A stretch of DNA of 64,000 bases, taken from positions 30,057,205 through 30,121,204 of the forward strand of contig OX393563.1 in NCBI GenBank assembly GCA_947652115.1, read 5' to 3'. The notes under the pieces are model-generated. The model was given only the letters and a program-made list of their open reading frames with translations. It was not told the origin of the DNA and searched no databases. Made by a program: the position numbers and the translations under genes. Origin of the DNA: Blastomussa wellsi (Eukaryota > Cnidaria > Anthozoa > Scleractinia > Plerogyridae). This document shows positions 7,245 through 19,200 of this stretch, in pieces; position 1 is the stretch's first letter; every line of letters begins with the position of its first letter.

Positions 7245-10200
7245 CTACTTCAGTGGTGTCAATTTGACCATCACCACCCCACTCGGGTTGACAATGGCAC
7301 TGAAGCTTTGACTAAATATCCCAAGATCCTTGTGTTCAAACAGATCACGTGCCACAGCGTGCGGTGCAGACAATCCAACCTGTAACGACAAATACAGGAA
7401 ATTCTTGATCAATGCTTTGTCACTGGCCCATGCCAAACAGTTTTAAGCCAATGAAGCGGCCTGGTGTATTTCTACTCCCCCTGGATGGGACGCTAGTCCA
7501 TCGCAGGTTACTCCCCCCTGGATGGGACGCTAGTCCATCGCAGGTTACTCCCCCCCTGGATGGTACGCTAGTCCATCGCAGGTTACTCCCCCCTGGATGG
7601 GACGCTAGTCCATCGCAGGTTACTCCCCCCCTGGATGGGACGCTAGTCCATCGCAGGTTACTCCCCCCTGGATGGGATGCTAGTCCATCGCAGGTTACTC
7701 CCCCCTGGATGGGATGCTAGTCCATCGCAGGTTACTCCCCACTGGATGGGATGCTAGTCCATCGCAGGTTACTCCCCCCTGGATGGGACGCTAGTCCATC
7801 ACAGGTTACTCCCCAGAATTATTTCAGGTTGCCCCAACAATTCTGAGTTCCAATTTGTCATCGTAAGTGAGTGCTAATAAAGGCGGTGGCAAACGAAGAA
7901 ACATTGAAGGTCATGCGATTTGTTGCGCACGCAACATTTTTTGCGGACACAACATGTTTCTGAATAAAATCAGAAACATTTTTTGTGTCTCGGACACAAA
8001 TTTTTTGTCTGCAACAATGTTACGTGCGCGGGCAAACAGGGAAACATTTGTGTCCGCAACAATATATCCTCGTTTGCCACCGCCTAAACAGTCCGGCAAA
8101 CACGCGCCAGTTGATGACGTAATCCCAACTCTGAGACGGGTGTTCGTACCAGACGTTGCTAAGCAACATGACGTGTTTGCCAAAACTGGCAGTTGTTCAC
8201 CCGACTGAATAAGTGTCTTGCCCAAGGACACAAGGACGACTGACTTATCCTGGCAGTTGACCAAACCTGGACTGCAAGTAGCGTGGCGTGACAGACAGAG
8301 GGGCCAGAGCTGGACTGATAGTAGCGTTGCGTGACAGAGAGATGTGCCAGAACTGGACTGCTAGTAATGTTGTGTGACAGAGAGATGTGCCAGAACTGGA
8401 CTGCTAGTAGTATTGTGTGACAGAGAGATGTGCCAGAACTGGACTGCTAGTAGCGTTGTGTGACAGAGAGATGTGCCAGAACTGGACTGATAGTAGCGTT
8501 GTGTGACAGAGAGATGTGCCAGAACTGGACTGCTAGTAGAGTTGTGTGACAGAGAGATTTGCCAGAACTGGACTGATAGTAGCGTTACGTGACAGAGAGA
8601 TGCGCCAGAACTGGACTGCTAGTAGCGTTGTGTGACAGAGAGATGTGCCAGAACTGGACTGATAGTAGCGTTGTGTGACAGAGAGATGTGCCAGAACTGG
8701 ACTGCTAGTAGAGTTGTGTGACAGAGAGATGTGCCAGAACTGGACTGATAGTAGCATTGCGTGACAGAGAGATGTTCCAGAACTGGACTACTGGACCGCC
8801 TGATCCAGAGTCCAGCATCCTAACCATTAGAGAAGCCGGCCTGCTTCGCAGATGTCGTTTAGGCTTGTCACGCAATCTTTCCTCCTCGAGATTGGGTGAC
8901 GAGTGCAAACGATGGCTACATTAGGAGGCTATGACCTGCTACACTCACCAATTTAAAACTTGCTTCAATTGGTTCAGGAGTAGAGGCAGAATGTGAAAAC
9001 AACACCACTGCTACAGACCCATCAGACAAAGGTCGGGCCCAGATCTCTTTGCTTCCTTCCTTGAATGCAACACATTAAAACATGTCACACTGCATGTTGA
9101 TATCACGACTTCGCTAAAACTAGAGCTTCCCAGATTATAATCTACTGCAAATATCCTTTTTGCAACACATGGTCTGTTTTGATATTATTTACGATTACTA
9201 AGACTCTGAATAACCATCAAGATTTCATCTTATGACTCATTAATTGATGATCGTCTTAATTTCCTTTGCCTGTCTGTTGCAAAGTGTTGCTATTATAAGA
9301 ATAAAAATGTGTCTTGTACCAATAAAGGGAAGCTCAAAATAAAACACCCGAGGCTGTGCATGAAATAAATCCCATATTTCTCATTGTTTAGTGTCTCACC
9401 AAGTAAACTCTCCTTCCCATTTTTCCCAGTTTGTCTTGATTGACAGCTATCACTTCACTGCAACATAAATATAATATTTATGTTTGATGGAATGTCCTCA
9501 GGGAAATACAGTGTCTTTTCCAGGGTATGATCTGTGTTTTGTGTATCCCTCTTGGGTTCTTAAGAGGTTTAGGGTTCCAGGGTTTGAAACCAAAGCAGCA
9601 AATGCAAAGACTTAAAACCTCTAGGGCTGAAAATAAAAAAATAAAAAAAAACAGAGCTCCAGGCTCTGTGACAAATGTTTTCAGGACTAAACAAATTCTT
9701 TGCATTGAATTATGTTCTGCTCAGCCTCGACTACAAAAACTCTCAGACAGGCTCCCACACAAGCAGAAGTCAGCCCTGATTATATGTCACTCTTTACTCT
9801 GGTAAAAGTAATCAGCTCCCAACAATAACAATTGATATTTGACAGCCACTTTCTCTTTTGCTTTGTGGTGCCTACTTCAAAGCATTTTGAAATCCCTGAC
9901 CTCGGCCCCACCACCCAACAATACATCCACTGCCACCAATTAGGACTCTGCCTTCCCTCCACAACCCCCTCATCCCCCACATCTCCTCATCCCCCTCATC
10001 CCCTCATCCCCCTTATCCCCATCAGTGAAACCTAATAATTAAAAGAAGCTTACATCCTTTAAACTTTAAATAATTAAATATTATGGTACATATCACATGT
10101 CTAACCACTTTTTAAGAGTATTCAATAACCAAATCAGCTATTTTCTTATTGTTTTCTGCATTATCTACACACCCTGTAAATTACAATCATTAGAAATTGT

Positions 10201-13200
10201 CACCTGTTTTGGAGGATTTCTTTGGCCCAAGGTGAAATTTTGCGAAGATCAGTGGACATAATCAAAGGCTACAAGAAAAAACAAATGCTACAAAATGGGT
10301 TTGGAAAACTTAAAGTGTGATTTAAGCCAACTCTTGCCTTGCGGACACCTCACTTTGTTATTACAGAGGTCCTGTTATTTAACGGACAGGAGTTGAAGTC
10401 CTGGTGAATAAGGCCCAATGAGAACTACTAAAAATAACTACAATGTGATCCAGAAGGGAGTGGGAGTTTACCATACACACAGAAGCTGTTCTCATCTGAG
10501 TTCACCTAAACTGATTTCCTGGTATGAAAATACAAAAAAGTAAGTTGCCAGTTTCTCTTACTTACAACTGCCTCATGTGACAAATGGTTTAATTATTGAC
10601 TTGTCATTACGCTCGGTGTCGTCTTTCATACACGTGTCTATGTTGCAAGAGTCGCTAGCGTCAATCTCTAGTCGTTGTAATTCCGCCGTTTATTCTTCAA
10701 CGCTTGTAATTCTTTCGGCTTTCTGGCAACATGGGTACACGTAGATCCCAACGTACGACTTCTTCGCGCCACCTATCCGATGACTTCGCCTGGGACGCAT
10801 TTCCTTCGCTGCCAGAACACACTTTCGACCTCGGTTCTTTAACACCAAAGCAGTCAAAGCAAGCCGCCAATTCATCTACTTCGAAGGACAAGAAAGTCAA
10901 AATTCGAATTCCTCCGAGCACTGAATCCGGCGTACAGCCCAGCAACGCGTCAGGCGAAGTGAATTCCCCGTCATCTGATGAATTATCTCGCTTGAGACTG
11001 CTGCGAGAGACTGAATCTCTACAAATCGAGCGACTCCAACTCGAGTTACAGCTCGCGCAGCTCAAGTTACAACAGCCCAAGCCCGCAGATCAACCAGGCA
11101 AAACAGAGAAACAACAAGGCGAAAAGTCACTGGGCGACCTCAAGGCACCTCAAAAGATCGTGGCACCACAAGAATGGCCTCACATCTTTGCCCCAGGTGA
11201 GCCTAAACTTTACCAAGACCTAACGATAACAGATTTTTCCGCGGGTTACGCCATAATAATAAAAAATTGCCAAGATCCCCCACTGCGATCGTATCTTCTA
11301 GACCATTTTTTCAATTTGATGGTTCTGGCGGGTTCCTATAAATGGCCAGCGGTTCGGGGTTTCCATTACAAGGTGTTACGGAGCATCGAAATGGGCCTTG
11401 CGTCTTGGGGGGATTCGTTCGACTCCGCCAAGCAGGCCTTTTTCCTTCCCTCCGCGCTCATTACGGAATCATCCGGCGGCAGAGCTAGTTCCAGGACCCC
11501 GCCTCCCAAACAGCCACCCAATTCTCAGCAGATTCCAAGGAGCCAAATTTGCGACGCTTGGTCATGGTTTGATGATTGTAACACGCCAGACTGCCCCCTG
11601 CGCCATGTTTGCGTGGTTTGCAAACGCGATCATCAAGCCCTCAACTGCACCAAGAGAAAGTACCCCGTCCCAGCGCGCCGTTCCGACACTCCGACCCAAG
11701 CCTGACTAGCCTCCACTAACCTCAGAACTGACCCATCTCACCCCATACCTCCTCACAGTAACCCAGCCTCGGATCCCTCGCAAAATCAGTCTGCTGCCAG
11801 CGCCTCCGGGCGCCCCCCTCTCACCTCCATTCCCTGCAAGTCTGAGCTCACCCGCCACTTCATCTCTCTTCACGCCAAACTTCAACAAGCCCCAGCTCCT
11901 AACGCTTCGTCCCTTCGTTTACCAGTTCCATCTGGTCTCAAAATCGCCGAGTGGCGATCTCGTTTAAGCGCCTACCATGACTCCTCCCTGTGCGACTTTC
12001 TTGAATTTGGTTGGCCCATCGGTTATGCCTCTCAAGCCACACCCGCCTCTACGCACACTAACCACGGCTCCGCAAAGGCAGCACCCGAAGTCGTCCAAGC
12101 CTTCCTCGACAAAGAACAGAACTTAGGCTCCCTATGCGGGCCTTTCCATTCTAACCCGCTCAGCAAAGACCTCGTGATTTCCCCTATGCAACTAGTTTAT
12201 AGTCGGTCCGGAAAACCTAGAGTAGTGGTCGATCTCAGCTTTCCAACTGGATTATCTGTCAACGACGGCATCCCAAAAGACTCCTACTTAGGGGAACCCT
12301 TTACTCTTCGATTACCTGGCATAGACGCGTTCGTCGACATCATTCGTGTCCTTGGCCCCGGCTGTTGGCTTTTCAAGAAGGACTTAAGCCGCGCATACCG
12401 TCAACTTCGCATCGACCCCAGAGACTACCATCTTCTCGGTCTGCAGCACCACAATCATCTTTATTTTGACATTGCGCCGCCGTTTGGTCTACGGTCCGCA
12501 GCCATGATGTGTCAAAGAACAACTTCAGCCGTCACGTACATGTTTCAGTCCATTGGCTTCCAGTGCACTAACTATATCGACGATTTTGGCGGTGCTGACA
12601 CTGCAGAGCTTGCCCCATCAGCCTTCCAGGCTTTAGGAAACCTTTTCTCGACACTAGGTCTCGAGTCGTCGCCTGACAAGGACTGTGAGCCATCACAAAG
12701 TATGATCTTCCTCGGCATCCTGTTTAACTCAATCGACATGACCATGTCAATCACTGCCGACCGCCTCACCGAGCTTCAAACACGTTGTCAATCAATGCTC
12801 GACTCCAGCGTCATTTCTCGTCGGGACTTGCAGTCTTTACTCGGGGTCGTGTCGTTCGTGACAGCCTGCGTTCGTCCTGCCCGTATCTTTATGTCTAGCC
12901 TCCTCAACACCCTTCGGGCTCACTCCTCTTCGCGTTTCTGCCAAGTCACCCCTGAAAACAAGTCCGATTTGCGCTGGTGGTGCCAATTCGTCCCAAGCTA
13001 CAACGGTGTCTCTCTGATCAAAACCAAACCGTGGATACACGACGCCCTTTCTTTTTCTACTGATGCGTGTGGTTCCGGCGCCGGCGGATTCTTCAACGGA
13101 AATTTTTTTCACACCCCATTTCCTGAGACAATCATGCTGCTTTACGGTCACGATATCAACATTTTGGAGCTCCTCACCATTATGGTGGCCTTGAAGCTTT

Positions 13201-16200
13201 GGGGCACCGCTCTACACGGTCAGCGGGTTATCATCTCTTGTGACAATGAAAACAGTGTTTTAGCCCTGAACTCGGGGCGTTCCCGTACTCCGGGCATGCA
13301 ACTCTGCCTTAGAGAGATTTGGTATTTGTCCGCCGTCTATGATTTCGAGTTACGCGCCGAGCACGTACCAGGCGTCTCCAACGCAATCGCCGACCATCTC
13401 AGCCGCTGGCATCTTTCCCCCAGTCACAAGGCTCATTTTGAGGCTCTCACATCTGGTGTCTCAACCACTTTTGTCCCATGTCCTCCCGAGTTGTTTAATT
13501 TCGACGTGTCCTTTTGATGTCCTTTTGCGACTACAGCTAATCGTCTCTGTCTTCGCCTCTTTCTTCAGGTTTCACCACTTCAAACATCGCCGCAGGTTCC
13601 GCTGTCTCCTTACCTCGACTGCAAGCCTTGGTTGGGGACGTTCAAGCTCAGGCCTATGCACAAGGTACCATCCGCAACGTTCGCTCACAGTGGAAAGCGT
13701 TTCTACGCTTCTGCAGTGACTTCCAGGTGTCTCCTCTGCCTGCCTCTTCATCTACAATTTCCTGCTTTCTGGTTTACCTCTCCCAGCGCACGTCATCCTA
13801 TCGTTACATCCTGAACCACATGAACTCTATTCGCATCCTTCATTTATACCATGACTTGCCTTGTGACGCTTTGTCCAGTTTTTCCGTCTGTTTGACAACC
13901 ATGGGTTTGAAACGCCTCTTAGGAACTCGGACCAATCAAAAACACCCTGTTACTCCAGATTTGCTACGCCGTATTTTTGGCCTGTTGGACACGTCCATTG
14001 CCTCGCAGTCCGCGTTATGGTGTTTGTTTCTCGTTGCCTTCTTCTCGTTTCTCCGCAAATCCAATCTGACCGCACCTTCCGCCCGGGCATTTGATCCCGA
14101 AAAACATCTAACGCGGGATGACATCAAATTCACTTCACAGGGAGCAGTCCTCCGCATTCGCTGGTCAAAGACAAGACAGCACCGTGAGGGCATTCTAATT
14201 GTTCCTTTGCCTCTCATTCCAGGTTCAGAGCTCTGCCCAGTCACCGCTATTAGGCATTATTTCAGTCTGGTTCCCGCCTCCTCGCGTTCTCCATTTTTCT
14301 GTGTTCCAAATGGCCGGCTTCTGTCGCCACTAACATCGTACGCCTTCGCCATCACTTTCAAGAAGCTGGTATCCGTTATCGGGCTCGACCCTAAAAACTT
14401 CTCACCACACAGTTTTCGTCGCGGGGGCGCCACATACGCTTTCCAGACAGGAGTCCCTGAACACCTTATCCAACTCCACGGCGATTGGCGGTCAGACGCT
14501 TACAAGCTGTACTTGGATTTACCTTTGTCCACTCGAACACAGGTGGCGGACACGATGGCCGCCGGACTTTATACACATTCTTAGTTTTAGACGTTAGGTT
14601 TTCGCCTCAGTGCGCTTAAGTAGTTTAGTCAGTTTTCTGTTCGCTCGCACCTGGTTTTCCGTCGAGTCAGGTTTTCGTTTCTTTTTGCCCATACGCATAC
14701 ATATGTTCGTTGTCCATTTTATATATAAATAAATTTTTTTTTCTTTTTTCCTTTCCTTCCCTTTTCACTTCCTATTTCTCCCCGTTTGGGCCTCTTTATC
14801 TTGGCGACATCCGTTTTATGAGTTTCCTATTAAACTTCTTTTTGGCCCAAACGTCTCGTCTCATTTGTAATGTTGTTGAGGAATAATTTGGAGGTTTGAT
14901 TGTATCAAATGGTTTAATTATTGACTTGTCATTACGCTCGGTGTCGTCTTTCATACACGTGTCTATGTTGCAAGAGTCGCTAGCGTCAATCTCTAGTCGT
15001 TGTAATTCCCCACCCTCCTCACCCATCCGTTTTATGAGTTTCCTATTAAACTTCTTTTTGGCCCAAACGTCTCGTCTCATTTGTAATGTTGTTGAGGAAT
15101 AATTTGGAGGTTTGATTGTATCAAACCTGTGGCATGCTTATGGCACGACTTGGGTCTAAATCTGCACAGGTAGGAGAACTTGACATTTCAAACTTTTACA
15201 GTAACTCAATTCTTTCAATAAGTACTGACGGCTGACAAAAAAGTGTTGGAAACTCCAGTCTACTTTGCTTGAAACATCTGCTACATTTTTCCTTCATTTG
15301 AAGAAATTAAAGACCGGCTGCCTACTTCAAATATTATTGAAATCCCTGGCAACTTAATCTATTGGAGTTCACGTACATTATATTCTCATGTAAGGTCCAC
15401 CTAAACAGGAATTGTGGTTCTTGGCAGACCAGTATATTGCTAACACTAACAAACACGAAGGTAAAGTAATGCGGTAGGGTCGGCAATCAATAACATCCAT
15501 CTAACGGCCCTCTCATCATTGGTGTGGTTTTGCAGTAGAGCTTAAATGATCCATGAAATAGGAAAATGTACTGATGACTGATCCAGCTTATCCTTACTTG
15601 TTTAGGTCAATCCAAAGCCCCGATTATGCATGGCATCACTGATTACAAAACCATGCAGACGATGAGAGGGCCATTCAACAGATGTTATCGAGTGCCGACC
15701 TGTGGGTAGCTACTAGCAGAAGCCATGTTGGACCCAGAAATGGATTTGCAAAATTATATACCCCAGTACCTTTAGGAGAGTTTCACAAGATTTCCCACAA
15801 GCATTCCTGTCCTTTAATAGGGTTGTCCCTTTCTGTGACTAATTCATTACAACAATAACATACCACACAATTATACCAAGTCTACTTACAGAAGCCATGA
15901 TGGACCAAATAGCAAACTGAGCCTTGGATTGTTCAAAACTTAAACTAAAGTCACCAATTATAAGCTGAGGAAAAAATGACAAAATTATATTTCATCATTT
16001 CAAATGTTAAAACAGTCCTCATTACAAGAAATTTTTGCAACAACTTAATTATACATGATTTTGGAAGAGCAGTGTTTGGTAACAAAGCAGTATTTCTTTT
16101 CTTTGATATCTAATTTTTTTTGGAAATGGTAAACTGTTTTGGGACTAATTATTTAAAAAAATTTGATCACAAGATGCATTTATTTTTTTATCTCTGTTTA

Positions 16201-19200
16201 AAGCAGCTTTACAATATGTAACAATGAAGAAAGGTCACTTCAGTTTTATATCATGCATGCTAAGTGGTTCACACTACACCACAGTGCGTCAGCCTGGTTA
16301 TTGTTGTTGTGCCAAGTTATATTGGTCATAAAGACCTCAGACAGATAGACCTTGTCCTGCTATATATAGAGGCAGGAATTTAAAACTTGTAACTCTATTG
16401 AAACATAAAATGGTACAAGCATATATACCATATCAGGGTCATTCCAGTTTCCTGGTCCTGCTACGGGGATCATCTCATCTTGGTGGTCGCCGTACCACTT
16501 AATTATTGTTGTAACACTCTGCCAGGAATCCTACAAAACAGTATGTCTATTAGGTATGTGCACTGTGATATATGACCACAGAAACAAGTATAGGATTGTA
16601 TTAACAATGGATAATCAACCTAACAAAGAACATTCTATGGCACGGTTAATTACTACAACGTCATGTCAAATTTCATTAATGTTACCTGTATGTCATTATA
16701 GTTTCTCCACAAGTTGCAATTTTCAGCAATCCATGTGTAATTGGGCTGAAAAATTAAAGAAAACCAATACAAGTTAAGACTTTATGTCAAGGAGCTTCAG
16801 AAATGGTGCAGCCAGTCTCTTTTTTTGCTCTTCTTTCTTTGCTTACTCACAGGTTGTGGCTTGACTGCTTGTATATCATGCTTGCTCACTATTCTTGCAT
16901 AATTCATCTCTACAAGTTAAGAGCAAAGGAGAGACTGCTTACAGTCTATTTCCTAAAAATCTCCCACAAAGATTCTCACCGTTCTACTGGAAACCTGATA
17001 AGCTGGCCAGCTACAAGAAAATACTATTGGTCGGCCTGTTTTGTTTAGTGCTTTAGTGACCATTGGGTAGCCTGTGTCCATCTTGTCAGGGTCGCTATAA
17101 CAACCATCAAGCTTTAGGTAATCAACTCCCCAGGCAGCAAATGTCTGAAAGACATAAGAACTGAACAAGTTGCAGTGGTATCCCAGTCAAATTATTCACT
17201 TAAAAGCCGGTAAGGTAGACTGCTTGTGTTCTACACTGTTTCTAGGTTTATAAATACACAAACCAGAAAGATAAAAAAGATTTACGTCATTACTTACATC
17301 CATGTCTTGTTGAATATGATCAATAGTTCCTGGATATCCAGCACATGTTTTTGTTCCATAATCTGGAAAGTAATGTTTTCAATTGTAAACGCTATGATCT
17401 ACCTGTGAGGGGCTCTGATCTATCTGACGTATTGGTTTTCCTTCATAAGCATACCCCAGGATAAGTAGTTTGGGTTCAACCTCTAGCCATGATCATAATG
17501 AGTGCACACAAACATTCAAAAAATGTTCCTTACTTTCACTAATCTCTTATAGATAGTTCGCCAAGACTGTGCTCTAGCTCTAAGCTTAAAGTAAGTTTAT
17601 CTGGTCGCAAAAGTAAGTCTCCTGAGGCACCTGGACACCCTTAGAGCACAGGCCTGTTTGCCATTAAAAAATTGTAACACAATGGAACCCCACCTTACTA
17701 TCACCTAGCTTATTAATGCGGTCACCTTGTTATTATGGTCAATTTATTTTGGTCTGGCAAAACAACCACAGATTCTCTTTTTTCTTACAAAAATCTCATT
17801 AATGTAGCCACCCCGTTAATATGACCAACAGCCACTATCTGCAATCCCAACCTGTACAATCCTTTATAATTTCACCAATTAATAGTCACTTGAACCAAAT
17901 ACCGGTGTGCATTTGTTATTGTCCAAATAAAACAAATACAGTGCTTGAGAAACAATATTTAACGTAAAGTAACATGAGAGAGGTTGGGGCCTTTGTGAGC
18001 GAGAAGGATATTTCAATCAGGTCTGGTCTTGTTTTGATTTAGAATCCCCAGTTATGTTCATATGCATGGAGTGATGAAGTTTTTCCATTCTGGATGTTTA
18101 TTAAAGAATTGACAGTTGTTTAGAAGTACAAAAAGTAACTGTCAGGACCAGTGATGAAATTTAACCCTACCCCATTTATATGGCCAAATTTTTATGGCCT
18201 GTTAGTGACCATATTAACAGAGTTCCACTATAATGGTGCACTGAGTTGCACCCATACCTAAACAGATGTGTAGTTAATGGTTCCTGTTGAGTATTTGTTG
18301 ACCTTGTACAAACAGTTGAAACAATGTTTCTTATTGATACAGGTACAATAATGCATGCAAAATGTTATGTTACAGCAGGCTTTTGAATACATTGCAGCCC
18401 TATGACACTGGGGAATTTGCAAGTATTATAGGCATGCAAAGAGTGAAAAGAACTATGAAGTTTTAAACACATTTTATCATGTTTTCTAGCAATTCTTGTT
18501 CCAGCTACAGACAGATCTAACCCTTAAATTTAATAAACGTCTTCTGTGTATAGCCACAAAGAATTGTCTAGAAATGCTACCTGCATATATTCCAAACTTT
18601 AACCCTTTAGAGTGAATCTGAAACAGAAAAATGTTTTCAGTGAAAAAAATGTCAATCCACTGTAAGGAAAAAGACGGCGACTGGTACATTTACCTATGTG
18701 CGCGAAAACCCTAAAAGAGCGTATAAAAACACAAATTAATAAAAGTTGTAAGTCGTTCAAACTCGACAAGAGCAATGTTGCAAGTAGTAGGAACGACTTC
18801 CATTAAACCATACCATTCTGTATGCCCAGTGGGCTTTGTTTGGCTCGCAAAGTATTGTGGTAAAATGTAAAGCCGCCATCTTTTCTCTTACATTGGATTA
18901 TAAACTTACGGGAATCTTAAAAAATAGTACACGGGAAACCTTGTTTTATCTGTAACACACAGCGAATATTATGGGAAGAAGAATGATATTATCACAATTA
19001 TTATTATAATAAGGCCTGCACAGTATTCCGCTAGTTGTCCAGTCTTAACTGGACCAAAAACCAACAATCAAGTAATAGCGCACTTACATATTCACCAAGA
19101 GCTTCCATTCCACTGGGAAATCTTGCAGGATCTGGTTGGAGCTGGCCATCAGATGTGCGATTATGAGACATCCAACAATCCTAAGAAACGGCAACTTTGA

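Follow-up and report, generated by a model that had tools for sequence, protein, structure and literature searches.

How Pol is produced by an element whose gag and pol genes lie in one reading frame with a stop codon between them is the question raised by a locus within the window (the whole stretch of DNA analysed here, 64,000 nucleotides of contig OX393563.1 from Blastomussa wellsi). In the literature covered, there is no tested answer to how tyrosine recombinase retrotransposons proportion Pol and recombinase to Gag. At 11703-11705 a gag-like gene ends in TGA followed by CTAG, and the original prediction proposed that the Gag to Gag-Pol ratio is controlled by programmed readthrough of this stop.

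Structure of the element

Judged by its split direct repeats and the order of its open reading frames (ORFs), the sequence at 10576-15125 is an Ngaro retrotransposon; all of its features described below are on the plus strand. Repeat comparison gave the arrangement A1 ... B1-A2-B2, in which A1 (10581-10684) is identical to A2 (14906-15009) over 104/104 bases and B1 (14808-14909) to B2 (15024-15125) over 102/102 bases, as had been stated originally, indicating that this insertion is young. ORF and Pfam reading gave the order gag, reverse transcriptase (RT)/RNase H, tyrosine recombinase, and in both ORF order and split repeats the element resembles the Ngaro elements described so far (PMC8547959 and PMC4157794, in the excerpts consulted). 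The Pfam scores were all below Pfam's own cut-offs (RVT_1, E = 0.0016; RVT_3, E = 0.0074; Phage_integrase, E = 9.2e-5), and a Pfam scan of the three ORFs with E up to 1 found no methyltransferase domain, consistent with an Ngaro element.

The gag-like ORF (10731-11705, first ATG at 10731) encodes 324 amino acids with a Cys/His knuckle and a long helix predicted at residues 82-113, and has homologues, described below. Structure prediction gave a model of low quality (mean pLDDT 57) that matched no PDB entry at E under 0.001, so the name Gag rests on the position, the knuckle and the helix. After the putative leaky stop UGA-CUAG (11703-11709), the frame remains open in the same phase from 11706 to a TGA at 13515-13517, giving a pol ORF (11706-13517) of 603 residues (the 604 counted in the original prediction included the stop codon) that carries the RT and RNase H domains; a protein search with it returned 869 RT homologues, of which 120 were listed. 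As predicted, no ATG precedes the RT core, since the first Met in the pol frame is residue 161 (nucleotide 12186), within the conserved pol region. The stretch at 11706-11855, which we propose is a linker translated only after readthrough, contains no stop in the pol frame and one and four stops in the other two frames. The tyrosine recombinase ORF (13541-14584), assigned by ORF and Pfam evidence, lies in a frame different from that of gag and pol and has no Met before residue 94.

Copies of the element in the genome

When the host genome (368 Mb, 124 contigs) was searched with the stretch at 11500-12200, 11 near-identical copies were found, including that of the window; full-length sequences were taken for the ten other copies (L012-L021), one of which (L012, the same copy as L001) has lost its 3' repeats. 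This collection of copies, which the original prediction had suggested as a check, showed TGA-CTAG conserved in 10 of the 11. The TGA stands between full gag and pol frames in eight copies, the pol frame is shifted in two, and the remaining copy (L010, the same as L020, at G000:C2:35740301-35745251) has the sense codon CGG and a frame open throughout, over 928 codons. L010 differs from the window copy at 25 positions, three of which (11700, 11703 and 11705) cluster within six bases at the stop and create the CGG codon. A sense codon in other young copies had been named beforehand as evidence against readthrough; it occurs this once, and the other ten copies keep TGA. L010 is also what speaks for the TGA being a mutation in a decaying copy, a reading that we regard as extremely improbable, given the retention of the codon in the other copies, most of them with both frames full, the identical repeats of the window copy and the presence of the same stop in all 13 families described below. 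The stop is thus not decay, as originally argued. Two bases 5' of the TGA, at 11701, three copies (L007, L009 and L011) have A for C, perhaps a subfamily mark.

Conservation of the stop across Ngaro families

A search of the genome with the Gag protein yielded 85 matches, and 57 places were read; the remaining matches were weaker or were additional fragments of an element. After removal of L033, a truncated copy missing the junction, 56 loci remained, namely the 11 copies of the window family and 45 further loci read across the junction. We divided them, by eye and by identity, into 13 families (F1-F13), all from this one genome and recovered through gag homology. The identity of pol between family representatives was 25-60%, with one pair at 82%, compared over no more than the 420 residues that follow the TGA, and over fewer where the frame ends.

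All 13 families have TGA followed by C, and no family read usually carries TAA, TAG or a sense codon. The TGA-C tag is present in 53 of the 56 loci, the exceptions being L010 (CGG), L038 (tail lost) and L072 (deletion spanning the junction), and it persists in the DNA of four loci whose gag is shifted (L040, L065, L067 and L069). Note that the tags were derived from the families themselves, so that the count within families shows only the agreement of copies; it is the match from one family to another that carries weight. The deletion in L072, which belongs to F12, is internal and fuses Gag to Pol.

The triplet after the TGA is CTA in six families (F1, F2, F3, F4, F12 and F13), CTC in F6, CTG in F5 and F10, and CTT in F9, making CTN in 10 of the 13; the context is CAACTA in F7, CAGCTC in F11 and CCAGTT in F8. 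F12 has the full TGACTAG too, at 44% pol identity to the window family. A C-triplet other than CTA is therefore found in seven of the 13 families, and CTC, CTG, CTT and the CCA of one family are weaker readthrough contexts than CTA, a point against the readthrough reading. The CAACTA of F7 fits the motif CARYYA, a known stimulator of readthrough (PMC4132726, in the part consulted). Together, the families offer a natural set of animal UGA contexts (CTA, CTC, CTG, CTT, CAA, CAG and CCA) for the study of readthrough.

Reading frame and linker between gag and pol

Both genes were detected in 51 loci, and in 50 of these the start of pol is in frame with Gag; the exception is L069, whose gag is shifted, and a pol match is missing in five of the 56 loci (L038, L049, L050, L065 and L067). 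A stop together with a pol match was seen in 47 loci; a single stop precedes pol in 42 of them, and more than one in L040, L059, L066, L071 and L074. No family has gag and the start of pol in different frames, the frameshift arrangement named originally as counter-evidence. The statement of the original prediction that overlapping frames are usual in this order is not right for Ngaro.

For the linker, we took one representative per family, picked among the copies with an open linker. In their 693 codons there are no stops in the pol frame and 32 and 64 in the other frames. The open frame is consistent with translation across the linker and argues against both a splice that skips it and a new start. 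Reinitiation or an internal start, by which pol would begin anew after Gag, could draw on an in-frame ATG in three of the 13 representative linkers (one each in F3, F10 and F11). The other ten have none, the pol of the window has its first Met only deep in the conserved region, and a new start would leave both the shared frame and the fixed type of stop unexplained, which makes it very unlikely in our view.

Variation in the linker among copies of a family looks neutral; this is expected after insertion and gives readthrough no support of its own. In a comparison of the two close families F7 and F8, constraint on the linker is only weak (0.22 nonsynonymous versus 0.29 synonymous changes per site) and that on the start of pol strong; the representatives of F8 and F10 used for identity and linker variation differ from those used for the acceptors below. 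Pol matches were found in three F10 copies (L062, L063 and L064), and each departs from the Gag frame some 50 residues after the start of pol, through a small lesion that differs from copy to copy but falls within the same short stretch. We read these breaks as decay, though no intact F10 pol was seen. Several copies across families break the pol frame further downstream.

Local folding, which does not cover pseudoknots, detected no stimulatory RNA structure at the window junction (11700-11830, z = -0.33). The same kind of test found no local 3' structure over the 13 families (z above 0 in ten and below 0 in three, lowest -1.50).

Predicted splice sites

Donors and acceptors were scored with a simple matrix of base frequencies, not a trained model. 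The best donor of the element is CCCCAG/GTGAGC in gag (11191-11202, intron from 11197, codon phase 1), with a score of 10.4 compared with 5.5 for the next, and it is present in all ten other copies of the window family. At the donor, the window family encodes the motif PGEP, whose Gly-Glu-Pro part does not vary among the 19 aligned sequences (alignment A1). The best gag donor is in phase 1 in 45 of the 47 loci whose DNA spans the gag region of the site (counted by hand, with F13 outside the count; the exceptions are L036 and L050). It is in phase 1 in all 12 family representatives, at about the same gag position in 11; F3 is the odd one out, and its copies disagree on the site. With equal chances for each phase, the probability of 12/12 would be about 2 in a million, a figure that is too strong because the families are related.

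Before the recombinase ORF, a branch-like CTAAT and a pyrimidine tract with CAG ending at 13568 form a predicted acceptor (13537-13568, exon from 13569, phase 1), and the acceptor string is kept in nine of the ten other copies of the window family. Among the nine families with the junction of pol and recombinase read, eight have their best acceptor in phase 1 and 8-53 bases upstream of the recombinase match, with a tie in F2; in the ninth, F9, the automatic score ranks another site above the likely acceptor. In the pol regions, equally strong acceptors are found at a rate of about 0.07 per 60 bases (14 in 12219 bases). The F7 copy L084, which has no recombinase, was outside this count; its DNA at the expected site matches neither recombinase nor pol and looks repeat-like by eye. 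Donor and acceptor sites of matching phase, in gag and ahead of the third ORF respectively, are thus predicted across families, in the manner of a retrovirus.

The same kind of search bears on the possibility that pol is translated from a spliced RNA from which the TGA has been removed, for example with the donor at 11197 or a weak donor at 11660 spliced to one of the acceptors at 11759 and 11926. On paper, the phase is kept when 11660 is paired with 11759 and when 11197, the strong donor in phase 1, is paired with 11926, and a gene model of Oculina patagonica (P0034) has a predicted intron skipping the stop. The donor at 11660, however, has no G at -1 and +5, and the best acceptors before pol lie at scattered places in mixed phases over the 12 family representatives (2, 0, 0, 0, 2, 1, 1, 1, 0, 0, 1 and 2), whereas the gag donor is nearly always in phase 1. 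No predicted splice route to pol is common to the families; a spliced junction removing the TGA had been named beforehand as a finding that would count against readthrough. Splicing over the linker would not need it to be open in the pol frame, yet it is open, and splicing to pol would leave the fixed UGA-C unexplained. For these reasons, we consider that pol is unlikely to come from a spliced RNA. The agreement in phase between donor and acceptor at the recombinase, set against the mixed phases before pol, points to the recombinase, not pol, as the probable product of splicing.

Homologues from other sources

Pattern matching placed the end of 25 of the 77 Gag homologues at the corresponding position, a few residues past a conserved Arg-Arg, and P0153 and P0164 also end there by eye; most of the remainder are shifted, truncated or incomplete at that place. 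Homologues that run on have Trp-Leu (P0129, P0137 and P0178) or Ser-Leu (P0173) at the position of the stop, which fits the loss of a UGA before a Leu codon, and frame-shifted copies have Asp-Tyr or a terminal Asp there (P0149, P0152, P0162, P0167, P0169, P0179, P0182 and P0195, by eye), which fits GA-CTA. A protein search for fused junctions gave only six matches. Among the 120 RT homologues listed of the 869, only P0004 and P0034 also match Gag, P0004 over just 48 residues. The predicted introns of P0034 skip the Gag stop and join pol to the recombinase; the first of these junctions deletes a piece of the RT and has the look of a gene-prediction artefact. No relative was found among viral contigs in searches with the RT, the RT alignment and the Gag alignment, or in the genome contigs collection in one scan with the RT alignment.

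Comparison with known systems and a proposed scheme of expression

The best explanation of the TGA is, very probably, that it is a UGA stop with programmed readthrough. This reading is founded on its position, the shared frame, the conservation of UGA-C over deeply diverged families, the open linker and the lack of a consistent start codon or splice route to pol, and the copies and families support the original prediction well beyond a single copy. At the window junction, UGA is followed by CUA(G) and by an open in-frame extension, as expected for readthrough of the UGA-CUA(G) type.

Readthrough of gag stops is itself already known in other retroelements. In murine leukaemia virus, a third product is made from a spliced RNA, and the stop is UAG with a 3' pseudoknot. 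In this gammaretrovirus, Gag and Pol share one frame with one stop, which is read through (PMC4178896, in the part consulted). The Ngaro elements are alike in having Gag and Pol in the same frame with a single stop and, by prediction, a spliced third product; they differ in that their stop is UGA, with neighbours of the CUA(G) type and no local structure 3' of it, and in having a tyrosine recombinase instead of a DDE integrase. The seven bases UGA-CUAG of the window are identical to the efficient readthrough motif of mammalian OPRL1, OPRK1, AQP4 and MAPK10, and of Chikungunya virus, although those are cellular genes or an RNA virus and not the Gag-Pol switch of a retrotransposon; there, 1.5% readthrough is reached with UGA-CUA on its own, the CUAG is conserved, and about 12 nucleotides 3' of the stop suffice (PMC4132726, in the part consulted). 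A caution comes from the gag-UGA-pol junction of Tca2 from Candida albicans: in this LTR element, which shares the arrangement with the Ngaro element of the window, the junction failed to direct readthrough in a reporter, according to the portion of PMC2194720 consulted.

In the scheme that we propose, most ribosomes would terminate at the UGA and produce Gag, and a minority, aided by the 3' neighbours CUAG, would decode it and produce Gag-Pol. Readthrough would in this way fix the ratio of Gag to Gag-Pol; we infer readthrough, its rate and the importance of the ratio from the sequences. A spliced RNA would fuse the N-terminal part of Gag, up to residue 155, in frame with the recombinase exon that begins at 13569. 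On balance, we favour the picture of an animal Ngaro element expressed as a simple retrovirus is: the full-length RNA would yield Gag, UGA-C readthrough would yield Gag-Pol, and a spliced RNA would encode the Gag(N)-recombinase fusion. The Gly codon at the donor may then be held both by its role as a phase-1 splice donor and by the protein. We found no report of stop readthrough or a spliced recombinase in the Ngaro literature covered, with the founding 2004 description, which may mention it, outside our scope. The conserved UGA-C stop and the matching splice sites make this a concrete and testable scheme, and they warn against calling such stops decay or merging gene models across them.

Two further features of the window were noted beside the element. 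A tandem array with a 43-base unit, reported in 12 overlapping registers, adjoins it at 8175-8905, and on the minus strand at 16400-17400 there are exon-like stretches that have, by eye, the appearance of a host gene of the alpha-galactosidase type.
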